61,057 nt of DNA, from the NCBI GenBank assembly GCA_026390935.1, contig JAPLEZ010000037.1, forward strand, positions 7,983 through 69,039, given 5' to 3'. Numbering within the stretch: the first letter of the stretch is position 1; each line of letters starts with the position of its first letter. Shown one piece after another: positions 35,781 through 54,282 of the stretch. Both the position numbers and the translations under genes were made by a program. Source of the stretch: Bacteroidota bacterium (lineage in GTDB: Bacteria > Bacteroidota > Bacteroidia > Flavobacteriales_C > GCA-002722245). The notes below the pieces were generated by a model, which saw nothing but the letters and a program-made list of their open reading frames with translations, did not search any database and was not told the origin of the DNA.

Positions 35781-35802
35781 TTGTTTTGAGTTATTAAATT
35801 TT

Positions 35803-35832
35803 ACCTACTCTTAAAGATTTTCGGCTTCCTCT
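35803..35832 (-). promoter_or_regulatory. LytTR-like direct-repeat element, copy 1
   Basis: Read on the minus strand: AGAGGAAGC (35824-35832), 12 bp CGAAAATCTTTA, then AGAGTAGGT (35803-35811). Period 21 bp. Ends 22 bp before the start codon of the astacin-tectonin gene. The same arrangement is found before the three other family members. Confidence 0.75.
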
Positions 35833-36322
35833 GGAAATTCATCTTTTAAAATATTTATTAAATACCATCGAGCTTTTATTGAAATTAAAAGTCAGTGGAA
35901 ATACTTTTTAAACTTATATCCCTTCATAAACAGCACAGTCTGCGATATGACACAATAGGACAAAAAAAAGTTACAAACGCTGCTAGGTCCGATTACAAGT
36001 GTTTTGTACGTAATACTCGCTACAGAAAATGCCTGTCACATCATTGTAAATTATTGTGGTGAATGTTCTGTTTGCTTTGTTATTTGGGGGATTTTTAGAT
36101 GTTGTGTTAATCGATGTAGGCAAAAATAGATGTCATCAAAGAAGAAAACAATGCGTGATATTCGGTCTTTTATTGGTGTAAATTTGACGGAATATCTAAA
36201 GAAATTTTTGTGAAAAAAATCAGGTGTTGATCAAGTTATTTCTTGGTCAAGAAAAACTTCTTTGAATGTTTGATTATGAAAAAATGGAATGTGCAAGTGC
36301 ATGTAATTGATGAAGATCGTTT
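35833..36322. other. Intergenic region without recognised gene
   Basis: About 490 bp, A+T-rich, between copy 1 of the protease family and the beta-helix protein gene. No convincing frame, hairpin with T-run or known RNA was seen. Confidence 0.5.
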
Positions 36323-40752: not shown

Positions 40753-40783
40753 AAATCCCCGGTTGTCGCCGGGGATTTTTTTT
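40753..40783 (+). terminator. Terminator-like hairpin without its own gene
   Basis: AATCCCCGG..CCGGGGATT stem followed by nine T. It is nearly identical to the terminator after copy 2 of the protease family (42522-42552), yet no family member lies directly upstream of it here. Confidence 0.8.
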
Positions 40784-40953
40784 TATTGATGCAGGCGATT
40801 TTTCTCCAAATGTTGGCGCTTATGAAAATTACACGAGCGGATATAAAGAGAGCGATTTGTTGTTGTATGTTTTGTTGAATTTCGTTGTAAGAGTTGATGC
40901 TGTAAGTTGCATGCAGCGACTCTAGAGTAAGCCGAAAATCTATAAGAGTAAGC
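40784..40953 (+). repeat. Duplicated leader segment, copy A
   Basis: With the preceding hairpin, 40753-40953 is about 90% identical to 42522-42718. Both include a potential RNA hairpin (AGAGTT/C-GAT-GCTG ... CAGC-GACTCT) in which the one difference in the stem keeps pairing through G-U, and both end in the LytTR-like direct repeats. Confidence 0.85.
40924..40953 (+). promoter_or_regulatory. LytTR-like direct-repeat element, copy 2
   Basis: AGAGTAAGC (40924-40932), 12 bp CGAAAATCTATA, AGAGTAAGC (40945-40953): a perfect 9-bp direct repeat with 21-bp period, ending 19 bp before the ATG at 40973. Confidence 0.8.
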
Positions 40954-40972
40954 AGAAATAAAATTGAGTAAT

Positions 40973-42499: not shown

Positions 42500-42521
42500 T
42501 TTTTGGAAAATAGTTATGAAT

Positions 42522-42552
42522 CCCCGGTTATCGCCGGGGATTTTTTTTTATT
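42522..42552 (+). terminator. Terminator after astacin-tectonin copy 2
   Basis: AATCCCCGG..CCGGGGATT stem with a run of T, 23 bp past the stop codon. Confidence 0.85.
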
Positions 42553-42718
42553 GATGCAGGCGATTATTTGCCAAATGGTGGCGCTTATAAAAATTACACG
42601 AGCGGATATCAAGAGAGCGATTTGTTGTTGTGTGTTTTGTTGAATTTCGTTGTAAGAGTCGATGCTGTAAGTTGCGTGCAGCGACTCTAGAGTAAGCCGA
42701 AAATCTTGAAGGGTAGGC
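42553..42718 (+). repeat. Duplicated leader segment, copy B
   Basis: Near-identical counterpart of 40784-40953; see there. It lies between copies 2 and 3 of the protease genes and shows that terminator plus leader were duplicated as a unit. Confidence 0.85.
42689..42718 (+). promoter_or_regulatory. LytTR-like direct-repeat element, copy 3
   Basis: AGAGTAAGC (42689-42697), 12 bp CGAAAATCTTGA, AGGGTAGGC (42710-42718); ends 19 bp before the ATG at 42738. Confidence 0.78.
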
Positions 42719-42737
42719 ATTATTTTAATTTACTATT

Positions 42738-44192
42738 ATGAAAAAAAAATTATTGTTTGGATCGTTAGGATGTTTTCTGATGTTTGCATCCTGCCAAAAG
42801 AAAGAAGTTGAAGAAGTTCAGGTTAAAGATTCCCAAGATTATTATTGTTCTTTCGCTGACGAAGGTGATCAAGAAAGTTTTAAAACCGATGCAGCGATAA
42901 ATAAATACGCGCTATGGAAGCCAGGTGCAACAATTAAAATTAAGTTTTTAGGAGGAACTACCTTTCAGCAGGGTAAAGTGAAATTATATGCTGTGGAATG
43001 GCTAAAGTATGCCAATTTGGTATTTCAATGGGTAGGAGCTTCGGAAGTAGCGGATATAAAAATTGCATTTAATTCATCGGATGCTTCTTGGTCTTATTTG
43101 GGCACAAGGTGCACTTATTACGGACAAACAACTCCAACCATGAATTTTTCTTCAATCAATACAACTATAGGGGATGTAAGTATTAAAAGTGCAGTATTGC
43201 ATGAATTTGGTCATGCTTTGGGTTTAGTACATGAGCACCAGAGTCCAAGCGCTCAAATTTCCTGGAACACTGATGCTGTATATAAGGAATTCACGTCTGC
43301 GCCTTACAATTGGTCGAAGTGGAAGGTGGATTCATTGATTCTGAAAAAAGAACTACGCCAATCAACCAACTACACTAGTTTTGACCAGAATTCTATAATG
43401 CTTTATAAATATCCATCCTATTTAACTACAAACGGTTGGTCAGCTCCTAATAATACTGTACTCTCTGATTTAGATAAAAAATACATTGGCATTAATTATC
43501 CTTTTTCGACATTCCCACCATCGAAAATTTTGTATAATGGTGCTTCGGATATTGGTGTAGGTGCAAATGGAACAGTATGGGTGTTAAGTAATGTTCTTGA
43601 GCCAGGAGGGGGCTATGGAATTTATAAATACAATGGAATTTCTTTTAATAAAGTGTCTGGTGCTGCAATAGCTATTGATGTTGATCCCGAAGGAAATGCC
43701 TGGATAGTATACAGAGATGGATCTATTTTTAAGTCAAATAGCTTAAATCAATTTACTAGAATTCCTGGAACGGCAAAAGATATTGGTGTTGGGGCGGATG
43801 GAAAGGTTTTTATAATAGGTACAAATGTAGAAGTTGGTGGTTATGGGATTTATCAATGGAGTGGTAGTTCATGGATAAAAATTCCAGGTGCCGCAGTTCG
43901 TATTTCGGTTGATAATGAAGGTTATCCTTGGGTAGTAAATAATGCAGGGGATATTTATAGGTACAATGGTAGCAAGTGGAGTGGTCTTTCTAGCTATGGA
44001 TACGATATCGGATGTGGAGCAGATGGAAGTGTTTATGCGTCAACTAGATTAGCCGCAATTAATGGGTACATAATTATGAAGTATACCGCGAATGGTTGGA
44101 TCAAATTTGGTGAAGCTGCTACAAAAATTGATGCTGGTCCTAATGGTGTGCTTTATGCATTAAGAAGCGATGGTAGCGTAGTTCAGTATTAA
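42738..44192 (+). CDS. Astacin-like protease with tectonin propeller, surface lipoprotein (copy 3)
   Basis: 484 residues. Lipobox MFASC (Cys19) then QKKE, close to a surface-export signal. Zinc motif HEFGHALGLVHEH, Met-turn SIMLY. Six tectonin blades (ASDIGVG, AIAIDVD, AKDIGVG, AVRISVD, GYDIGCG, ATKIDAG). Its terminator is shared with the convergent sensor kinase gene at 44244, whose partner regulator follows; with them it forms the first protease/two-component module. Confidence 0.88.
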   Translation: MKKKLLFGSLGCFLMFASCQKKEVEEVQVKDSQDYYCSFADEGDQESFKTDAAINKYALWKPGATIKIKFLGGTTFQQGKVKLYAVEWLKYANLVFQWVGASEVADIKIAFNSSDASWSYLGTRCTYYGQTTPTMNFSSINTTIGDVSIKSAVLHEFGHALGLVHEHQSPSAQISWNTDAVYKEFTSAPYNWSKWKVDSLILKKELRQSTNYTSFDQNSIMLYKYPSYLTTNGWSAPNNTVLSDLDKKYIGINYPFSTFPPSKILYNGASDIGVGANGTVWVLSNVLEPGGGYGIYKYNGISFNKVSGAAIAIDVDPEGNAWIVYRDGSIFKSNSLNQFTRIPGTAKDIGVGADGKVFIIGTNVEVGGYGIYQWSGSSWIKIPGAAVRISVDNEGYPWVVNNAGDIYRYNGSKWSGLSSYGYDIGCGADGSVYASTRLAAINGYIIMKYTANGWIKFGEAATKIDAGPNGVLYALRSDGSVVQY

Positions 44193-44206
44193 TTATTAAT
44201 TTTTGA

Positions 44207-44238
44207 GAATACACAATCCCGGGCACTAGCCTGGGATT
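44207..44238. terminator. Bidirectional terminator between protease copy 3 and the kinase gene
   Basis: AATCCCGGGC..GCCTGGGATT stem with A and T runs on the two sides, placed between convergent stops. Confidence 0.8.
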
Positions 44239-44243
44239 TTTTT

Positions 44244-46334
44244 TTAATTGTTTTCAAAGGAAGGCAGACTGAGAGTCACTTTTGTTCCATTACCTTCGGC
44301 ATCTGAAATGGTGATATTTGTTAAGGGTTTGTTTTGCTTTCTTAAAAAATCAATACGCTCATTGGTGATTTTGGTAGCTAGTGATTTGTGTTGTCCGTTC
44401 ACTTTGTTTTCTTCCGATTTTTTTCGTCCTATGCCATTGTCAACAATTACAATTTGCACATAATCTTGCTCGATCAAAGAAATTGAAATGTCGATATTCC
44501 ACTTTTTGCTCACTCCAGAAAAACCATGTTCAATGCTGTTTTCTAAAAAGGGTTGCACAAACATGGGGGGGAGTTGAATGCTTTCGGAATCAATATCCGC
44601 GCTGAGTTGAATGGAGTAGGTGAAAGAATTGTTGAAGCGCAATTGCTGTAGCTCCAGATAATACTTAACGGTGCTTAGTTCATTTTCAAGCGACACATAT
44701 TCTTCTCTGGAATTCTCCAGAATGTTGCGCATCAATTTTGAAAATTTAGCCAGATAACTTCCAGCATCCAATGCATTGTTGTTGATAATGTATTGTTGAA
44801 TAGAGGAAAGAGAATTAAAGATGAAATGCGGATTTAACTGTGAGATGAGGAAGCGCTGTTCAATTGCAATTTTATCTCTTTCGGTTTTAAGTTTTTTACG
44901 TTGTAAAAATAAATATATCACAACAAATAGCACAAGTAATAATGCGGAGATGGTGATGAAAATTATTTTTCCCCTGCTAATTTCCAAAGATTTCACAGCA
45001 TTTTCCTGAGCTAATAAATTTTTTTCTTTTTTTAAATTTTCAGTATCAAACGCAGTTTGCAAACGATCAATCTCCTTGATGCGATTTTCTTGCGTAAGTG
45101 AATCGTGATATAGAAATTTTATTTTTTCATACTCTAATGATTTTTTGTAATCGTTTAAAGTCTGATATATGCTGGAAAGAAGTTCGCTCTCTTCAATGAT
45201 TTCTGATTTCCGATAGGATCTTTTTGAAATTTCAAAAGCGTACAAAATATTTTTTTTTGCTTTTTCAATTTCTCCGGTTTTGAAGAGGGCGCGAGAATAT
45301 GGAATTAATACGCGAGGCAATCCTTTTAATTCATAGTTGTTGTATTTTGTTTTATATGTAAAAGAACTGTCGCCAATGGATAAATATTCCTCAGCATATT
45401 GAATGGTTTTTGGGTAATCACCTGCTTTTTCGTAGATAATGGTTTGCATCCAGGTTCGATTCATCGTGCGCACCTGAATAGGTTGATCCATGCAGATGTC
45501 ATTTTCGGTGATTAGGTTTAGGTAGTGTAGCGACTTCTGGAATTGTTTGGTTTTGTTATAAAATTGAAGTAAGTAAAAGTAGTTGATGCCTCGGGCAATG
45601 CAATACGTTGTGCTGGCAAGCGCTTTTTCGGCGAGTAAATAATTTTTTTCGGCTGCAGCGTCGTCATTTAATTTATCTTTTACTCGTCCTAAAATCATGT
45701 AAGCAAATCCGAGGTCATGTGCATTGTTTTGCTGTTGGGCATATTTCAATGCTTGCTGACCGTACAGCAATCCCTTGTCGTATTGATCCAAGTCCATGTA
45801 CACAGAGGCTAAATTGTACGAAGCCAATGAAAGATGTTGTTGAGTTTTATTTATTAAAAAGTATTCGTAGGATTTGTAGGCGTTGTTTTCTGCTTCACTG
45901 TATAGAAGGGTTCTTCGTTTGGTAATGGACCATTCTGACAAGGTGAGAAAATAGTTCAGTGAATCGTTGTTTCTTAAAAACAATTGAGCGGCTTCATTGA
46001 GCGATTTTTCAGCATTGGCGTATTCGCCTTTGTAATTTTCGCACCATCCTTTGCTTAAAAGAGCGATGGCCATTGCGTTGCTGTTGCTTACTAATTTCGC
46101 CTTGTCATAAAGCATTTGCGCAGCATCGTGTTTTTCGGTGAGCAAATTATGATAGAGTTGATTGATGATCAACAATTGTTCAACTTCTTTATGAAGGTTT
46201 TTGAACTGTTGTAACTCTTGCTTTTTCTGCTGAATAAGTCTTACGTTATCCTGGGCCTGTGCTGTGAAATAGCCAACAAGTAGGAGAAAGAAAGTAATTA
46301 TTTTTTTTGCGAAGGTCATTGTTAATGTTGTCAA
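44244..46334 (-). CDS. LytS-type sensor histidine kinase with TPR sensor region (module 1)
   Basis: 696 residues. Signal-like N-terminus (FFLLLVGYFTAQAQ), a large extracytoplasmic part built of TPR-like helical repeats (about residues 40-430), one membrane segment near 454-476 and a His_kinase (PF06580-type) domain: phosphoacceptor His near 503 in LNPHFIFNSL, N-box PFLENSIEHGF near 595 and G-box VDNGIGRKKS near 631. It phosphorylates a LytTR regulator. The regulator gene overlaps its start by 4 bp (ATGA), so the two are translationally coupled. Closely related to the kinase at 48857. Confidence 0.93.
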   Translation of the reverse strand: MTTLTMTFAKKIITFFLLLVGYFTAQAQDNVRLIQQKKQELQQFKNLHKEVEQLLIINQLYHNLLTEKHDAAQMLYDKAKLVSNSNAMAIALLSKGWCENYKGEYANAEKSLNEAAQLFLRNNDSLNYFLTLSEWSITKRRTLLYSEAENNAYKSYEYFLINKTQQHLSLASYNLASVYMDLDQYDKGLLYGQQALKYAQQQNNAHDLGFAYMILGRVKDKLNDDAAAEKNYLLAEKALASTTYCIARGINYFYLLQFYNKTKQFQKSLHYLNLITENDICMDQPIQVRTMNRTWMQTIIYEKAGDYPKTIQYAEEYLSIGDSSFTYKTKYNNYELKGLPRVLIPYSRALFKTGEIEKAKKNILYAFEISKRSYRKSEIIEESELLSSIYQTLNDYKKSLEYEKIKFLYHDSLTQENRIKEIDRLQTAFDTENLKKEKNLLAQENAVKSLEISRGKIIFITISALLLVLFVVIYLFLQRKKLKTERDKIAIEQRFLISQLNPHFIFNSLSSIQQYIINNNALDAGSYLAKFSKLMRNILENSREEYVSLENELSTVKYYLELQQLRFNNSFTYSIQLSADIDSESIQLPPMFVQPFLENSIEHGFSGVSKKWNIDISISLIEQDYVQIVIVDNGIGRKKSEENKVNGQHKSLATKITNERIDFLRKQNKPLTNITISDAEGNGTKVTLSLPSFENN

Positions 46335-47083
46335 ATCGACTTAAGCATTTCCAAGAATTCCTGTTTTTTACGGGTTGATACAGGAATTTCCGAACCGTCT
46401 TTTAAGCAAATATATCCACCATCATTTTTTTTGAAGGAATCAAAATGCTGCATGTTGATTAAGTGTGATTGATGCGGACGGTAAAAGCCGGCTGTAGATA
46501 AAATATCATCAAACTCTTTTATGTTTTTGGATGCAGTAATTTTCTTTTTGCCCATGATGTATATGTCCGAATAACTTCCGTCGGCAGTTACGTGCACAAT
46601 ATCTTTAATGTCAATGGCACTTATAGAATCCTGTGTTTTCACAAAAATTCTTTCCGATTTTTTGTTGTGTTTTACAGTGTTCATCAACTCCTGTAACTGT
46701 TCTGAGAAAATTTCTTTCGACAAAGATTTTTTTGCCTTTTCCACCGCTGTTTTTAACTCGTCGGGATCAACCGGTTTTAATAGATAGTCGACGGCGCAAT
46801 ATTTAAATGCTTTAATGGCATGTGTGTTATGAGCAGTGATGAAGATGACTTTGTGCAAGGAATGATTGATGGCATTTAAAATATCAAAACCCGATTTGTT
46901 GTTTCGCAAATCAATATCTAAAAAAAGAATATCGGGGTTTAAATCGTTAATGATTTTCACGCCGTTGTCAAAGTCGTTTGCTTCGCCAATGATTTGTATA
47001 TCAGGGGAAACAGTAAGAAGATATTTTTTAATAATATCAATAGCCGACTGCTCGTCGTCAATAATAATTCCGCTTAGGTTCAT
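46331..47083 (-). CDS. LytTR-family response regulator (module 1)
   Basis: 250 residues. Receiver domain with acidic pair Asp9-Asp10, phosphoacceptor Asp56 in ILFLDID, Thr83 and Lys103 in YLLKPVDP. The C-terminal LytTR DNA-binding domain runs from about 145 (ERIFVKTQDSISAIDIKDIV ... FYRPHQSHLINMQHFDSF ... GSEIPVSTRKKQEFLEML). LytTR proteins bind pairs of 9-bp direct repeats about 21 bp apart centre to centre. Its start faces the start of protease copy 4 across a 274-bp gap carrying such a repeat pair. Confidence 0.95.
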   Translation of the reverse strand: MNLSGIIIDDEQSAIDIIKKYLLTVSPDIQIIGEANDFDNGVKIINDLNPDILFLDIDLRNNKSGFDILNAINHSLHKVIFITAHNTHAIKAFKYCAVDYLLKPVDPDELKTAVEKAKKSLSKEIFSEQLQELMNTVKHNKKSERIFVKTQDSISAIDIKDIVHVTADGSYSDIYIMGKKKITASKNIKEFDDILSTAGFYRPHQSHLINMQHFDSFKKNDGGYICLKDGSEIPVSTRKKQEFLEMLKSI

Positions 47084-47307
47084 AATTAGGTCAAAGAGTG
47101 AAGTTATGAAAAAGAGTTAAGATTTAAATATTCAGATTTTTGATTTCAAAAAGTAAAGGATTACCATATGCACTTGGTGTATAACGGATTAATTCAAAAA
47201 TATTACGGATTTATGTAATTAAGTTACGCTTTTAAAATCTCCCCTTATAGCCTGGAATTATCTGTGAATTTTTGCCTTGGATTTAATGCCAACATCGCTT
47301 TAAATCC
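47084..47307. other. Divergent intergenic region
   Basis: Between the module 1 regulator (minus) and protease copy 4 (plus). A looser repeat pair AGAGTGAAG (47096-47104) and AGAGTTAAG (47114-47122), 18-bp period, is found near the regulator start; its meaning is unclear. No gene. Confidence 0.4.
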
Positions 47308-47337
47308 AGAGGTAGCCGAAAATCTATAAGAGTAGGC
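47308..47337 (+). promoter_or_regulatory. LytTR-like direct-repeat element, copy 4
   Basis: AGAGGTAGC (47308-47316), 12 bp CGAAAATCTATA, AGAGTAGGC (47329-47337); ends 20 bp before the ATG at 47358. Confidence 0.78.
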
Positions 47338-47357
47338 GAAACTTAAATCTAACTCCA

Positions 47358-48812
47358 ATGATTAAAAATTACGTTTTGTTGGGGGCCGCAGGAACTTTAA
47401 TGTTCATGGCCTCTTGCAAGAAAGATGAAGTGAAAGAGCCTGAAAATGATCTTCACAAAGTTCACACTTGTTCTTTTATTGATTCTTCAAGCACAGAGAG
47501 TTTTAAAACCGATGCATCAATTAGCAAAGCTGGGTTGTGGACTCCAGGCCAAACTATAAGAATAAAATTTTTAAGTGGTACTGATTATCAGAAAAATAAA
47601 GTGAAGCAATATGCACCACTTTGGTTGAATTCAGCCTACTTAAAATTTCAATGGGTGACTACAGCTGAAAATGCTGATATTAAAATTGATTTTGATGAAA
47701 ATGACGGTTCATGGTCATATTTGGGAACTGCTTGCAGAAATTTTGGTCAAACCACACGTACAATGAATTTGGGTTGGGTCGTAAGTACAGAAACAGAGGC
47801 CAGTATTAAAAATGTAATTCTGCATGAGTTTGGACATGCTTTGGGATTGAAGCATGAACATTTGAGTCCAAGTTCAAATATTTCTTGGGATAAAGAGAAA
47901 GTGTATGCTGCTTGTGCTCTCCCACCTAATAGTTGGGACAAAGCAACTGTTGATTTTAATATTTTGAACAAGGAAACAGCGGCAACAACCAATTATACTG
48001 CTTTTGATAACTCTTCAGTAATGCTGTATTCCTTTCCAAGTACATGGACTACAAATGGCTACTCGGCTCCTTTCAATAGTGAGCTTTCGGCTATTGATAA
48101 AAAATATATTGAAATAAATTATCCTTATCCAAGCGGCAAATGGTCGAACATATTTAGTCGTGTATCTGACGTAGGTGTTGGTAAAGATGGTTCTGTTTGG
48201 GTATTGAGTAACATTGCTGAAGCTGGGGGGTACGGTATTTACAAATATAATGGATATTCGTTTAATAAAATTGCAGGAGGTGCTGTTGCTATCGACGTTG
48301 ATCCAAATGGAAATCCGTGGGTTGTTAATAGTGCGGGTAGTATTTTTAGAGGAACTCCTCAAGGGGCTTGGACATTGATGCCAGGTTCGGCGAAAGACAT
48401 TAGTGTTGGAGCCGATGGAAGCGTGTACATGGTGGGCACAGATGTTTACAGAGGTGGAAATGGTATTTATAAGTTTGATGGTGCATACTGGGTTAGACAA
48501 ACGGGTGTTGGAGTGCGGATTTCAGTGGATAACCAAGGTAGTCCTTGGATAATAAATGATATGGGAACTGTTTGGAGATTAGCTAACGGAACATGGACTA
48601 ACATGGCTGCATCAGCTACCGATATTGGTTGTGGAGCCGACGGAAGTACTTTCATCACAACAAAAACTGCAGTGAATGGTGGTTATACGATTCAAAAATT
48701 CAGAGACAATGGGTGGATGAAGTACAGTGGTGGGGCGTATAGAGTGGATGTGGGTCCAAGCGGAGAAGCTTTTGTGGTAAACACATCAGGTTATTTGTAC
48801 AAATATTATTAG
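47358..48812 (+). CDS. Astacin-like protease with tectonin propeller, surface lipoprotein (copy 4)
   Basis: 484 residues. The first 23 residues are identical to copy 1 (lipobox MFMASC, Cys20, KKD), although the DNA differs at several third positions. Zinc motif HEFGHALGLKHEH, Met-turn SVMLY, six tectonin blades (VSDVGVG, AVAIDVD, AKDISVG, GVRISVD, ATDIGCG, AYRVDVG). Convergent with the second kinase gene, completing the second protease/two-component module. Confidence 0.88.
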   Translation: MIKNYVLLGAAGTLMFMASCKKDEVKEPENDLHKVHTCSFIDSSSTESFKTDASISKAGLWTPGQTIRIKFLSGTDYQKNKVKQYAPLWLNSAYLKFQWVTTAENADIKIDFDENDGSWSYLGTACRNFGQTTRTMNLGWVVSTETEASIKNVILHEFGHALGLKHEHLSPSSNISWDKEKVYAACALPPNSWDKATVDFNILNKETAATTNYTAFDNSSVMLYSFPSTWTTNGYSAPFNSELSAIDKKYIEINYPYPSGKWSNIFSRVSDVGVGKDGSVWVLSNIAEAGGYGIYKYNGYSFNKIAGGAVAIDVDPNGNPWVVNSAGSIFRGTPQGAWTLMPGSAKDISVGADGSVYMVGTDVYRGGNGIYKFDGAYWVRQTGVGVRISVDNQGSPWIINDMGTVWRLANGTWTNMAASATDIGCGADGSTFITTKTAVNGGYTIQKFRDNGWMKYSGGAYRVDVGPSGEAFVVNTSGYLYKYY

Positions 48813-48826
48813 ATAGAAATCAATGT

Positions 48827-48858
48827 AGAAATCCCCAACGAAAGTTGGGGATTTTTTT
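48827..48858. terminator. Bidirectional terminator between protease copy 4 and the second kinase
   Basis: AATCCCCAAC..GTTGGGGATT with a T run after it, between convergent genes. Confidence 0.85.
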
Positions 48859-50947
48859 ATTCCCTACTAGGAATGTAAGGAAGAATCAATTTCACTTTGG
48901 TTCCTGTGCTATCGCCATTGTCTATGTCTTCAATGATTATTTGGCTTTTTGAATTGCGTTGGTTTTGTAAAATTTCAATTCTGTCGTTGATGATTTTTGT
49001 GGCCAAAGATTTATGTTCAGTATCGGCTGGAGCACTAAAGTCATTTGATTTCTTGCGTCCCACGCCATTGTCGATGATTTCAATGCAAATGTTTGCATTG
49101 TCAATTTTACTCACGTTAATTTCTATTTGCCATTTTCTAGCTTCACCTCTAAAACCATGTTCAATACTGTTTTCTAAAAAGGGTTGAACAAACATCGGTG
49201 GAATTTCAATTTCGTTGGTATCGATGGAGGAAGGTATATTTAATTTGTACGAGAATGAATTATTAAAACGCAACTGTTGAAGCTCAAGATAATATTCAAT
49301 GGTATTTATTTCTTGCTGGAGTGCAATAAATTCTTCCCTTGAATTTTCTAAAATATTGCGAATCAATTTTGAAAATTTCGCCAAATATTTTCCTGCATCC
49401 AGCTGATTGCTGGTGAGAATATAACTTTGAATTGCAATCAAAGAATTAAAAATAAAGTGGGGATTTAATTGTGATAATAAGAAGCGTTGTTCTACTTCTA
49501 GTCTGTCTTTTTCATTTTTTATTTTCTTACGTTGGAAGTATAGATATATACTGATCGATACAACAATCAGCAATATTATTGCGGCAATTGTAAGCATTTT
49601 GCTTTGTGAAACTTGTAATTCTTTTACTTTGTTTTCTTTGCTTAAAATATTTTTTTCATTTTTTAAATTCTCTGTTTTATAAACGGTTTCCAAGCGTTGT
49701 ACTTCACGTGTGCTTTTTTCTGCCAACAAAGAATCGTGGTACAGATTTCTTGTTTTTTCAAACTCATATGCTTTTTTATAATCTTTATTAAGTGTGTATA
49801 TGCTTGCTAAAACTTCTGTGATTTCTACAATTTCCAATTTTCTGCCATACCTTTTCGACAGTGATAGAGAGTACAAAGCTTTTTCTTCTGCTTGCTTTAC
49901 ATTCCCCGATTTAACAAGCGCTTTAGATAGGGGAATTAATACTCGGGGGTAGCTTTTGTATTCCTGACTTTCATGTGTGGTTTTTGCGGCGATAGCGCTA
50001 TCGTGCTGTGCCAAATAGGTTTCGGCACATGCAATGGCCTCCTTGTAATTCCCTTGTTTCTCATAAATTGACGCCAACATCATGTTTTTAAAAAAGGCAA
50101 TTTGTTGAGGGGGATGACCTTGCTTGATGTTGTTGGCTACTATCAAATCCAGGTATAACAGTGTTTTCAGATAGTTTGCTGTTTTGTCGTACAACTGAAT
50201 TAAATAATAGTAATTGATTCCTTTAGTAACACATTTGTTTGTTTTGTCGAGTTCTTTTTCGCCCAATAAAAAATATTCTTCTGCTTTTTTATTGTTGTTG
50301 TATTTCTCACTTACTCGGCCTAAAATCATGTACGCAAATCCTGCGTATTCAAAGTTTCTTTGTTTGTTGGCGCTTTTCAAAGCAATTTGTCCGTAATACA
50401 ATGCTTTGTCGAAAAGCTCCATATCTAGGTATACAGATGCAATGTTGTAGCAGATGATTGGCAGATAAGCCTCTGCTTTTTTGCGTTGAACATATTCAAA
50501 AGTTAGTGCGGAAATGCTTTCAGCTTCATTGTAAAGAAAGCTTCTCCGTTTTGAAATGGACAATTCGGAAAGCGTTAGAATGTAGTGTAAAGAGTCGTTT
50601 TCGTTTAAAAAAAGCTGACACGCTTCATTCAGCGATTGTGTGGCGATGACATACGTGCCGTTGTTGTTTTCGCAATAGCCCATCGTTGCTAAAGCCATCG
50701 CCATTTGATGTTTGTTATTGGTTTGCTTGGCTTTTGCAAACCATGCTTTGGCATTTACATACTTGTCGCTTAATAAATTTTGGTATAAATCATTGATGCG
50801 ACTGTGTTGTTGAACTTGTTTTTCTAAACTCGTGATTGCAGTTAGTTCAACTTTGCATTTGTTGATTTCTTGCACATTGTCTTGTGCATATACCTGAGCA
50901 GAGGAATAAAGAAAAGCAAAAAGGAAAAGTATACGAATGCTTTTCAT
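48857..50947 (-). CDS. LytS-type sensor histidine kinase with TPR sensor region (module 2)
   Basis: 696 residues, same length and architecture as the module 1 kinase: signal-like start (ILFLFAFLYSSAQVYAQ), TPR-like sensor region, one membrane segment (about 452-474), LNPHFIFNSL with the phosphoacceptor His, PFLENSIEHGF and IDNGVGRKKS. The sensor part has diverged more than the kinase core. The regulator gene starts 10 bp upstream of it on the same strand. Confidence 0.93.
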   Translation of the reverse strand: MKSIRILFLFAFLYSSAQVYAQDNVQEINKCKVELTAITSLEKQVQQHSRINDLYQNLLSDKYVNAKAWFAKAKQTNNKHQMAMALATMGYCENNNGTYVIATQSLNEACQLFLNENDSLHYILTLSELSISKRRSFLYNEAESISALTFEYVQRKKAEAYLPIICYNIASVYLDMELFDKALYYGQIALKSANKQRNFEYAGFAYMILGRVSEKYNNNKKAEEYFLLGEKELDKTNKCVTKGINYYYLIQLYDKTANYLKTLLYLDLIVANNIKQGHPPQQIAFFKNMMLASIYEKQGNYKEAIACAETYLAQHDSAIAAKTTHESQEYKSYPRVLIPLSKALVKSGNVKQAEEKALYSLSLSKRYGRKLEIVEITEVLASIYTLNKDYKKAYEFEKTRNLYHDSLLAEKSTREVQRLETVYKTENLKNEKNILSKENKVKELQVSQSKMLTIAAIILLIVVSISIYLYFQRKKIKNEKDRLEVEQRFLLSQLNPHFIFNSLIAIQSYILTSNQLDAGKYLAKFSKLIRNILENSREEFIALQQEINTIEYYLELQQLRFNNSFSYKLNIPSSIDTNEIEIPPMFVQPFLENSIEHGFRGEARKWQIEINVSKIDNANICIEIIDNGVGRKKSNDFSAPADTEHKSLATKIINDRIEILQNQRNSKSQIIIEDIDNGDSTGTKVKLILPYIPSRE

Positions 50948-50957
50948 AATCCCAAAT

Positions 50958-51710
50958 TTATATGGATTTCAACATTTCAAGGAATTCAGGTTTTTTTCTA
51001 ACAGATACCGGAATGCTTGTTCCATTTTTCATTTTGATGTATCCGCCATCATTTTTCTTAAACGATTCAAAATACTCCATGTTGATTAAATAGGATTGGT
51101 GCGGACGGAAGAAGTTGCATACCGCTAAGGTTTCTTCAAAATCTTTTATGTTTTTGGTGACGGTAATTTTATTTCCGCTTTTTAAATAGATATCCGAGTA
51201 CGCGCCTTCAGAGATAATGTGCATTATATCCCCAACGTCGATGGCGCTTATAGCATCCATTGTTTTTACAAATATGCGTTCGGGTTTTTTCTTAAGGTTT
51301 ACCGAATTTACCAGCTCTTTTAATTGTTGTGGAAAAAGTTCACTGGAAACCATTGACTTTACTTTGTTGATGGCTGTGAGCAATTCATCGGGGTCAATGG
51401 GTTTTAAAAGATAGTCGATGGCGCAATATTTAAATGCCTTAATGGCGTAGTCGTTATGGCCGGTTAAAAAAATTATTTTTGATTTTTTGTAATCTACTTC
51501 ATTCAATAAATCAAAGCTTGTTTTGTTGTCTTTAAGTTCAACATCTAAAAAAAGAATGTCGGGTTTGTAGGTGTTGATTAAGCGAATTCCTTCCTTAATT
51601 TCTGTGGATTCACCAACAATAGAAATTTCCGGACAAAGTGCTTGTACGTATGATTTAACTGCGTTAATTGCAGTTTGTTCATCATCAATAAAAAGGCAAG
51701 TGAGGGTCAA
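50958..51710 (-). CDS. LytTR-family response regulator (module 2)
   Basis: 250 residues from the TTG at 51710, matching the length of the module 1 regulator; an upstream TTG at 51755 would add 15 poorly conserved residues. Receiver domain with IDDEQ, phosphoacceptor Asp in ILFLDVELKD and Lys in YLLKPIDP; LytTR domain with ERIFVKTMDAISAIDVGDI and FFRPHQSYLINMEYFESF. The nearly identical DNA-contact region suggests it may bind the same sites as the module 1 regulator (inference). Confidence 0.94.
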   Translation of the reverse strand: MTLTCLFIDDEQTAINAVKSYVQALCPEISIVGESTEIKEGIRLINTYKPDILFLDVELKDNKTSFDLLNEVDYKKSKIIFLTGHNDYAIKAFKYCAIDYLLKPIDPDELLTAINKVKSMVSSELFPQQLKELVNSVNLKKKPERIFVKTMDAISAIDVGDIMHIISEGAYSDIYLKSGNKITVTKNIKDFEETLAVCNFFRPHQSYLINMEYFESFKKNDGGYIKMKNGTSIPVSVRKKPEFLEMLKSI

Positions 51711-51786
51711 TGTATCTTGGTTTAAAAATAATTTGTCAAAAATTAAATTGCGCAATGTTGCATTAAATATCCTTGATGAAAATGGT

Positions 51787-54282
51787 TTACCTTATTAATG
51801 TAACGTGTCCTATCAATTGTTTTTGTTTATTTATTCCGCTTTTTTGTTTGACGGAACAGTTTAGTTTATAAACGTAAACATCATCGGGACAACGAAGGCC
51901 ATTGAAGTTTCCATTCCAGCCTTCTTCTGCATTGTTGCTTTCATAAATTAATTGTCCCCACTTATTAAAAATTAGCAAGTGGTAGTCGCTGATGTTTTCT
52001 TGTTCAACTTTAAAAACGTCATTTTTATTATCGCCATTCGGACTAAAAGCACTTGGCACATATAAAGATGAGGAGCAAATACTCTGAGTGATTTCAAATT
52101 TAGTATCACTGGAACAGCCATTTGCATTGCTCATTGTTAGTAGATAATCTCCAGCTTTTGTAATGGTGATTGTATTGGTGCTGTCTCCTGTGTTCCAGAA
52201 GTAGTGCAATTGTGAATCGTTATGTAAATGTCCGATGGCAAATTTAAAGTCGGAACAAAAATCGGTTTCCGCCAAAGGTTCAATCTGCGGAAGGAAACTC
52301 ATTGCAACTTTAATAGTGTCGGCAGCGGCGCAATTAAAGGTGTTGGTCGCCTTTAAAATGTATTCTCCACTTTTATCAACGGTAATCGTTTGTTTTGTCG
52401 ACTGGTTATTCCACAAATATGAAAGTGAATTGTCATCTATTACAGGACTTAAGTTAATACTCTGATTTTCGCAAATGATGGTGTCTGCTCCAAGTTTAAC
52501 AGTCGGATTTTCATGTACAACAACTGTAGCAGAAGCTTCAGCAGTGCATGAATCAGTGGAGATAAAAGAGATGTCGTCAAGTATAAAATCATTTCCTCCA
52601 TAGTCAATACTCTTATTGAGGATACAAACATCTGCGCTGGTGACAGTGCTGGATTGCCAGTATTCATCGGCTCTTTCCCAAACACAGGTGCTGCTATTTG
52701 CTTTAAAGGTTGATCCAACTGTATTTCCGTTGATGGTGAAATACAGTTCCGAGGGATTGCTGTAATAGGCTGATCCTATGCTGGCAGAAAGGTGATAAGT
52801 TGTATTGGGTTTCACACTGATATTTTGACACCATATTTTTGTGTTTTCTATGGTGGGGCCATTTACAAAAAGCATATTGCCGAATCCCGAAGTATGATCG
52901 GCACAGGCCGAATAAGCTGGCGCTATTGATTGAGGATCGTCAACAACGTAGTAAAGTCCTTCAGGATAAAAGGTTGTAGTTTCGTTGTATCTGCACTCTG
53001 AAACAAAATCAGTATTCCCTTTTTCAAAGTCGCCATTCAACACTTTATTTGCTCCTTCAAACGAATGAGATCCTTTAACGGAATATTTTCCAGCTGAATT
53101 AACAGTGATTGTTGGAGTTGTTTCACCTGTATTCCACAAATAATTATCAAAATCACCACTGGCTGAAAGGGTAGTGCTTTTGCCTTCGCAAAAAGATGTA
53201 TTTCCGCTAATAGAAATGCTAGCTGATGATTTGCTTACTTTAATGTCGTCGTTGGCTTTGCAGCCATTGGCATCGGTAAGCGTTAGGGAATAAGTGCCTT
53301 CATCGGAAACATCAATTGAATTGGTGATTTTACTGTTGCTCCATAAGTATTTAAGGTTAGGATCATTGCTGGGTAAACCAATGGCAATGCTTTGATTATT
53401 ACAAATACTAATGTCGTTGCCTAAATTACAAATGGGATTTTTGTTCACAGTAACTGTAATGCTGTTGGTAGCGACGCAAATATCTTTTTTTTGAAAGCTG
53501 ATGTCATCCAAAATAAAATCATTTCCCATTGAACTGGTGTTTATCGTGACAAGGCACAGTTCTGCACTTGTTTCGCTTTTTGATTCCCACTCCTCAACAA
53601 ATTTCTTCCAGTTACATTCACTTTCGTCGGCTGTGAAACTTGCTCCCAATGTTTTGTTGTTTACTGTGAATTGCAGTTCTGCCGGACTGTATAGATAAGC
53701 CGAACCTAAACTAGCAGAAATTTGATATTCTGATTTTGGCTCTACAGCCAGTGTTTGGCACCATACTTTTTGATTGTAAACAGCAGCTCCGTTGCCAATG
53801 AACATATTGCCCGTTCCACTGGTGTTATCGGCGCAAGGAAAGTAACCGTAATGCACATTTTTTGCATTGTTGGAGATAGAGTATATGCCGCAATCGTAAA
53901 GATAAACGGCGTCGTATATATATTCGGTAGTAAAATCTTTTACCCCTTGTTCGAAGTCGCCATTTAATACCATGTTTTTCCCATCACTTAATGATGAACC
54001 TTGCACGCTGTATGTGCCCGACGACTTCACTGTTATTATTGGTCCGGTTTCGCCCGTGCTCCAAATAAAATTATCGTAGGGTCCCACGGCGCTCAGGATG
54101 GTGCTATCGCCTTCGCAAATTGATTTTTTTCCACTAATGGAAATAGGGTCGCATTGACCTAGTACAACACCAGACAGCAATAGATGAAAACACAACAATA
54201 GAACCGAGTATGCCCGGTTGGAAAATGACAATATCAATGTAGTTAGATTTAGGTGTAGCGAAAAGCATTGAACCTTTTGCAA
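51787..54282 (-). CDS. Large T9SS type B protein with duplicated lectin-like modules
   Basis: About 831 residues with a hydrophobic N-terminal signal (VLLLCFHLLLSGVVLGQ); the exact start (TTG at 54282 or a later one) is uncertain. An Ig-like segment (ISGKKSICEGDSTILSA) followed by a jelly-roll-like module (LNGDFEQG ... WCQTLAVEP ... GNDFILDDISF) occurs twice (about 45-275 and 355-590), each followed by Ig/PKD-like strands (LGNDISICNNQSIAI; LGADTIICENQSINL). The C-terminus is a type B T9SS domain (VPSAFSPNGDNKNDVF ... FNKWGQLIY ... WNGNFNG). The NGDFE modules resemble carbohydrate-binding domains. Same strand as, and 31 bp beyond, the module 2 regulator. Confidence 0.87.
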   Translation of the reverse strand: MQKVQCFSLHLNLTTLILSFSNRAYSVLLLCFHLLLSGVVLGQCDPISISGKKSICEGDSTILSAVGPYDNFIWSTGETGPIITVKSSGTYSVQGSSLSDGKNMVLNGDFEQGVKDFTTEYIYDAVYLYDCGIYSISNNAKNVHYGYFPCADNTSGTGNMFIGNGAAVYNQKVWCQTLAVEPKSEYQISASLGSAYLYSPAELQFTVNNKTLGASFTADESECNWKKFVEEWESKSETSAELCLVTINTSSMGNDFILDDISFQKKDICVATNSITVTVNKNPICNLGNDISICNNQSIAIGLPSNDPNLKYLWSNSKITNSIDVSDEGTYSLTLTDANGCKANDDIKVSKSSASISISGNTSFCEGKSTTLSASGDFDNYLWNTGETTPTITVNSAGKYSVKGSHSFEGANKVLNGDFEKGNTDFVSECRYNETTTFYPEGLYYVVDDPQSIAPAYSACADHTSGFGNMLFVNGPTIENTKIWCQNISVKPNTTYHLSASIGSAYYSNPSELYFTINGNTVGSTFKANSSTCVWERADEYWQSSTVTSADVCILNKSIDYGGNDFILDDISFISTDSCTAEASATVVVHENPTVKLGADTIICENQSINLSPVIDDNSLSYLWNNQSTKQTITVDKSGEYILKATNTFNCAAADTIKVAMSFLPQIEPLAETDFCSDFKFAIGHLHNDSQLHYFWNTGDSTNTITITKAGDYLLTMSNANGCSSDTKFEITQSICSSSLYVPSAFSPNGDNKNDVFKVEQENISDYHLLIFNKWGQLIYESNNAEEGWNGNFNGLRCPDDVYVYKLNCSVKQKSGINKQKQLIGHVTLIR

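Follow-up and report, generated by a model that had tools for sequence, protein, structure and literature searches.

Which element could coordinate four related proteases encoded close together in one Bacteroidota genome, and how did two similar sensor pairs come to lie among them? The stretch analysed (61,057 nt of contig JAPLEZ010000037.1, hereafter the window) contains two tandem paralogous blocks, in each of which a protease gene on the plus strand converges on minus-strand genes for a TPR-LytS kinase and a LytTR regulator. Block 1 comprises protease copy 3 (P3; 42738..44192, +, 484 aa), the kinase HK1 (44244..46334, -) and the regulator RR1 (46331..47083, -, 250 aa), the last two overlapping by 4 nt. 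Block 2 comprises P4 (47358..48812, +, 484 aa), HK2 (48857..50947, -) and RR2 (50958..51710, -). RR1 and P4 diverge across 274 bp. Both convergent gaps hold a terminator-like hairpin: an intrinsic-terminator-like hairpin between P3 and HK1 (44215..44238, +), and AAATCCCCAAC-GAAA-GTTGGGGATTT, read directly in the sequence, between P4 and HK2 (48829..48854, no strand assigned). Two further proteases, P1 (34305..35780, -, 491 aa) and P2 (40973..42499, +, 508 aa), complete the set, all four copies lying within 15 kb. The order of protease copy 3, terminator and kinase/regulator, followed by copy 4 and the same elements, had been proposed by an earlier sequence-only reading and was confirmed by the open reading frames and Pfam domains. 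Its figure of 696 aa for both kinases holds only with a TTG start for HK1 (the ATG at codon 6 gives 691), and its equal 250-aa regulators require that RR2 start at the TTG that aligns with the RR1 start, as chosen here (upper end 51710, otherwise 51755). Immediately upstream of RR2, and in the same orientation, is a gene for a CHU_C (type IX secretion) repeat protein (51787-54282). It may form one operon with RR2 and HK2, and HK2 may therefore have a target other than P4.

The four proteases have a common plan. Each carries a lipobox cysteine, a cysteine near residue 38, a zinc motif, a Met-turn and a C-terminal tectonin domain. The zinc motif HEFGHALGLxHEH, which conforms to the astacin signature HExxHxxGxxHE, and the Met-turn SxMxY were found in 4/4 copies, and Pfam recognises an astacin/matrixin-like metzincin domain together with Tectonin (PF19193) in the C-terminal halves. 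Relative to the Pfam Astacin cut-off of 22.5, P4 (33.4) and P1 (25.0) score over and P2 (21.4) and P3 (20.9) just under. The solved structures nearest to P4 by sequence are myroilysin (4e-47, residues 54-256) and Tectonin 2 (1e-11). Myroilysin is kept latent by a cysteine switch (PMC9848320), and the conserved precursor cysteine at residue 37-39 of all copies is a candidate for the same role. Surface-exported lipoproteins of Bacteroidota carry X-K-(D/E)2-X after the lipobox cysteine (PMC5080379); the predicted mature N-terminus of P4 (CKKDEV) fits this rule exactly, those of P1 (CKKDLE), P2 (CKKEVP) and P3 (CQKKEV) partly. These motifs make it probable that the four proteases are displayed at the cell surface, are kept latent by a cysteine switch like that of myroilysin and are held to glycans by the tectonin domain.

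The kinases combine TPR repeats, His_kinase (PF06580, with NPHF and an N box) and HATPase, and the regulators a Response_reg receiver and a LytTR domain, which assigns both pairs to the LytS/LytTR class. Each kinase begins with a signal-like segment followed by TPR repeats, one transmembrane segment (near residues 452-480 of HK1 by hydrophobicity) and a LytS-type transmitter, a layout in which the TPR region is most likely periplasmic. HK1 and HK2 score 703 bits against each other, the next best score being 164 in their own genome and 223 in 390 genomes of the class. Between the blocks, the LytTR domains are better conserved than the receivers (64% vs. 52%) and the kinase DHp regions better than the TPR regions (74% vs. 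48%). The better conservation of the regulators' DNA-binding domains is expected if the two sensors keep a common output, and the whole pattern is suggestive of altered input with common output and possible cross-talk. We infer that the adjacent pairs control the proteases; the kinases may, as the sequence-only reading suggested, sense protease products. The search for an independent operator of RR1/RR2 found none. A period-18 imperfect direct repeat (AAAGAGTGAAG / AAAGAGTTAAG) lies just upstream of the RR1 start (47093-47121); as an autoregulatory site it was set aside, such a repeat being expected by chance, on a rough estimate, about once per ten such regions.

The sequence-only reading had called the blocks a duplicated cassette, and paralogy bears this out: identity is 51% for P3/P4, 51% for HK1/HK2 and 57% for RR1/RR2, and 61% for P1/P4. 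A search of the same genome placed its only four proteases of the astacin-tectonin family in the window; since, moreover, HK1 and HK2 are by far each other's closest relatives, the tandem order is not due to chance. The window proteases form one group (93/86) in the tree built from 31 catalytic domains; within it, P4 joins P1 (95/86) and P3 joins P2, the latter weakly (88/53). This branching, ((P4,P1),(P3,P2)), would be expected from a duplication of the whole cassette followed by protease-only copies. The coding DNA of the proteases is ~62-76% identical in most aligned pieces. Ahead of P2 and P3, two stretches of ~200 bp (40753-40972 and 42518-42737), each with a strong terminator hairpin, are near-identical. 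These leaders are much more alike than the P2 and P3 coding regions, possibly through gene conversion or a recent duplication of the leader.

We then looked for the same linkage in other genomes. The proteases and kinase pair were not found in four congeners. Conserved synteny of the whole module was rejected, as it was not found in 60 relatives (searched with the protease) or in 390 genomes of the class (searched with the kinase). Nevertheless, in 5 out of 7 Bacteroidota loci found by protease similarity, a TPR kinase and a NarL-type regulator adjoin an astacin-like protease. These five loci (L016, L017, L019, L020 and L022) group with Chitinophagales. The kinases of the five loci are mutually related and the flanks differ among most of them. 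Because their pairs are of another class (HisKA_3/NarL), they represent a recurrent pairing rather than conserved synteny. The linkage expected in relatives was retrieved as a protease-TPR kinase-regulator neighbourhood in five Chitinophagales genomes, but with the other class of pair, the module itself being found in none of the 390 class genomes or of the congeners searched. No protease was found beside other members of this TPR-HisKA_3 kinase group. In Chitinophagales genomes and one uncultured Cytophagales genome, several members of the group were seen (L017:6051-12767, L074, L077-L082), one beside an astacin-like protease and others elsewhere, and the family seems to be multiplying. A sensor pair was also rejected as a general companion of the protease family: a directly adjacent LytS or TPR-NarL kinase was found in 0 out of 17 other Bacteroidota protease neighbourhoods (L040-L048, L058-L065), L063 having an unlinked LytS/LytTR pair some 4 kb or more from the protease. 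From these surveys, the combination of protease and periplasmic-TPR sensor therefore arose in two or more forms that differ in the class of regulator, and it is not the rule.

The comparison of upstream regions revealed a 30-bp motif ahead of 4/4 proteases. It is present four times in the window and never in 100 shuffles, and its 27-mer core, searched with ≤3 mismatches, occurs at four places in the 3.76-Mb genome, all of them protease leaders; nine genomes sharing the genus or the family lacked the 27-mer motif. Between P1/P4 and P2/P3, this motif is all that is conserved upstream. It corresponds to Rfam RF02914 (DUF805b; clan CL00115), a candidate cis-regulatory RNA, which matches end to end in all four leaders (E 4e-7 to 0.04). 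The sites lie at 35802..35834 (-, P1; 36.5 bits), 40922..40954 (+, P2; 34.3 bits), 42687..42719 (+, P3; 21.8 bits) and 47306..47338 (+, P4; 35.1 bits, in the RR1-P4 divergent region), so that, with a gathering score of 35.6, P1 is over, P4 and P2 just under and P3 clearly under. Our model R1, built partly from these same sites, gives them 42.9, 40.8, 38.7 and 39.0 bits, respectively. The RNA ends 21 nt (P1), 18 nt (P2 and P3) and 19 nt (P4) before the ATG, a position appropriate to a cis-element. The CCGAAAA loop and the GAGTARG/GGGTAGG tail are conserved in all four leaders, and the hairpin, CCGAAAA loop and AGAGUAGG tail that define DUF805b are all found, with 3-4 of the 4 hairpin pairs formed in the window copies. 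The element tying all four proteases together, as judged from sequence comparison, is thus the DUF805b RNA, which the sequence-only reading had missed, rather than the sensor pair. To our knowledge, DUF805b is an orphan candidate RNA, and nothing on it was found in the literature collection searched. Five RF02914 matches were counted for the window's genome, of which one is additional to the four protease leaders.

To what extent does DUF805b behave as a structured RNA elsewhere? Of 149 genomes searched, 95 contain an RF02914 match, and in 59 of them a match exceeds the cut-off. From 43 aligned sites of many genomes, we derived an H-type pseudoknot, in which the NCC that precedes GAAAA in the loop pairs with the GGN of the AGAGUAGGN tail, adding a second helix to the Rfam hairpin. 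Over these sites, 89.9% of the cells in the hairpin helix and 96.9% in the second helix are paired (92.9% overall). Covariation reaches 0.549, vs. 0.153 +/- 0.019 for shuffled partners and ≤0.099 for slid partners. At the first pair of the second helix, GC, AU, UA, GU and CG are all seen; in a separate count, 39 of the 42 non-window sites pair at this position, a value reached by 0/20,000 shuffles. The window copies keep both helices and are AU-richer, P2 keeping 2/3 pseudoknot pairs. Covariation lends indirect support to DUF805b acting as an RNA in vivo. The motif ends 15-25 nt before the ATG in 54/60 sites, most often 19-21, and the search for a fixed promoter distance or a Bacteroidota -7 box upstream of the motif gave no clear positional peak. 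With the distance to the ATG fixed and no fixed one to a promoter seen, DUF805b would act on translation initiation.

The genes behind DUF805b were then compared. Out of 50 downstream proteins, 13 have a type IX sorting tail and several others are lipoprotein-like. By a crude hydrophobicity test, 37/60 downstream proteins are signal-like vs. 251/585 neighbours, hence a moderate bias to exported proteins. In three genomes of another class (family f84), DUF805b lies 19-21 nt before the ATG of an astacin-like protease, with no two-component pair apparent in the two neighbourhoods read. In the tree, these proteases sit on a branch distant from the window copies, which makes two origins of the pairing of RNA and protease probable. 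No DUF805b match was obtained for the Chitinophagales proteases with sensor pairs; as these have a pair without DUF805b, and the f84 proteases have DUF805b without a pair, the RNA and sensor layers are separable. Elsewhere, four DUF805b matches, one of them weak (20.8 bits), lie within ~2.2 kb (L172:7614-9759, genome G085), several before small genes, and at L158:7632-8441 a DUF805b site immediately follows a gene for a NarL-type regulator, another regulator of this type being encoded downstream.

LytTR genes are linked to DUF805b in part of the genomes. In the first eight other genomes, 6 out of 43 DUF805b sites are within 2.5 kb of a LytTR gene vs. 0.85 expected (P = 2.5e-4, the sites being treated as independent, which those of related genomes are not). 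In all six cases, a LytS kinase, a LytTR partner and a DUF805b-led exported protein are found together, the sensor being TPR (L154, L170), propeller (L150, L157, L160) or LamG-like (L171). The arrangement of L150 is convergent, as in the window. In ten more genomes, with the distance prespecified, 0/32 sites were near LytTR vs. 0.39 expected. A general linkage was thus rejected: the combined count (6/75 vs. 1.24 expected, P = 1.8e-3 under the same assumption of independent sites) is carried by families f41 and f38. The association is at most real in some lineages, namely f41, f38 and the window's genome.

As the best explanation, to which we give about even credence, we propose duplicated cassettes with two-tier control, LytTR acting on transcription and then DUF805b on translation. 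An ancestral cassette would have consisted of a myroilysin-like, tectonin-tailed surface lipoprotein protease and a TPR-LytS/LytTR pair. After its duplication, each protease would have been recopied without the pair, P4 giving P1 and P3 giving P2. With its TPR domain, each kinase would read a cue in the periplasm or outside the cell, and the LytTR regulator paired with it would set the transcription of the protease genes. Finally, the DUF805b pseudoknot, ~20 nt before the AUG, would gate or tune translation initiation in response to a factor. The locus suggests a protease family under an RNA switch as well as under neighbouring sensors. What speaks against this model is that no RR1/RR2 operator apart from the motif was found, that none of the 32 sites in the second set of genomes was near LytTR, and that the RNA and sensor layers occur one without the other.

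Three other explanations have to be weighed against these duplicated, doubly controlled cassettes. In the one that survives best, which we regard as possible but doubtful, DUF805b alone governs the proteases and the pairs are bystanders in the duplicated block that regulate other genes, e.g. the CHU_C gene, shortly downstream of which RR2 lies on the same strand. The linkage of DUF805b to proteases without a pair in the f84 genomes, the presence of the RNA but of no own pair at P1 and P2, and the 69 out of 75 DUF805b sites with no LytTR within 2.5 kb all agree with it. Nevertheless, bystanders would hardly account for both pairs having been retained beside a protease after the duplication, for RR1 diverging from P4 over a single intergenic region, or for the independent pairing of protease and sensor in Chitinophagales.

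An improbable explanation is that the motif functions as DNA rather than as RNA, being an operator of the LytTR direct-repeat type (AGAGTAAGC-N12-AGAGTAAGC) to which RR1/RR2 bind. LytTR targets are repeats of 9-11 nt with spacers of 11-13 nt (PMC4847170). The motif was initially read as a LytTR site because it holds two 9-bp units 21 bp apart that fit this rule in length and spacing; at this period, 28/36 positions match, vs. ≤15 at the other shifts tried, and 28 is reached by 13/5000 column shuffles. LytTR genes are, in addition, enriched near DUF805b in some genomes. The repeat is thus real, but it coincides with the RNA motif, the pseudoknot explains its conservation better, and by our reasoning an activator site would hardly be expected at so short a distance from the ATG. 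Among the 43 sites, changes in the first unit are compensated so that pairing is kept, and the helices show covariation; a duplex DNA site needs neither. It is the ATG from which the distance is fixed, no clear constant spacing to a promoter having been seen; the replicate genomes have no LytTR-adjacent site among 32, and in one genome (G142) 9 DUF805b matches were counted alongside just 2 LytTR genes. Rfam and covariation therefore point to RNA, and a LytTR operator was rejected as the cause of the shared leader motif.

An ordinary tandem amplification, in which a secreted-protease locus multiplied with its leaders merely inherited and with no coordinated circuit, would suit the clustering of the copies and the ~200 bp, terminator included, common to P2 and P3, but it is very improbable given that P1/P4 and P2/P3 keep only the 30-bp motif upstream of coding DNA that has diverged as described above, and that the motif also precedes distant proteases and occurs in over 90 other genomes.

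Beyond the window, we put forward, as a rather speculative extension, that DUF805b is an H-type pseudoknot acting, ~20 nt from the start codon, on translation initiation of exported Bacteroidota proteins and that, in some lineages, it is wired to LytS/LytTR for joint control, possibly with the LytTR regulon making the factor read by the RNA. Bacteroidia ribosomes fail to recognise Shine-Dalgarno sequences (PMC9976891). With the pseudoknot and the fixed AUG distance, an RNA of unknown function gains a specific hypothesis on translation control in Bacteroidia that can be tested, and the locus offers a compact natural test bed for DUF805b, with four paralogous targets and plausible adjacent regulators in one genome. 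On the protease side, it indicates that surface astacins can multiply together with their sensors.

Several known systems resemble parts of this locus. Myroilysin (astacin family M12A, Myroides; PDB 5gwd, 5czw, 5zjk) is similar in its catalytic domain (compared with P4), zinc motif and Met-turn, and the cysteine near residue 38 of the window copies could be its cysteine switch; however, it is a secreted elastase (PMC4377995), whereas the window copies are lipoproteins with a C-terminal tectonin domain and are four in number. Their C-terminal halves match PF19193, and P4 also matches Tectonin 2 (PDB 5fsb), but the domain is here fused to a protease. The Chitinophagales loci likewise have a protease beside a periplasmic-TPR two-component pair, but these pairs are HisKA_3/NarL-LuxR, mostly divergent and with no DUF805b found, whereas those of the window are LytS/LytTR and convergent. 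For DUF805b itself, the Rfam RF02914 model as printed is a single hairpin; the second helix is added here, although it may already be drawn in the original description. Also added here is an association with surface proteases and, in some cases, with LytS/LytTR pairs.

In the Fsr system of Enterococcus faecalis (FsrC kinase, FsrA LytTR regulator, gelE), a LytTR pair lies beside a secreted metalloprotease gene that is under its control. The sequence-only reading knew of no described system with this combination, which is too strong in principle since Fsr already puts a secreted protease under the control of a neighbouring LytTR pair; the exact combination is nevertheless not one that we know. 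Binding by FsrA is cited in PMC4847170. Fsr has no TPR sensor, no 5' RNA element known to us and a protease of another family, and no peptide pheromone gene was seen at the window locus. The likeness is that a LytTR pair adjoins a secreted metalloprotease gene, which in the window would be under the control of that pair.
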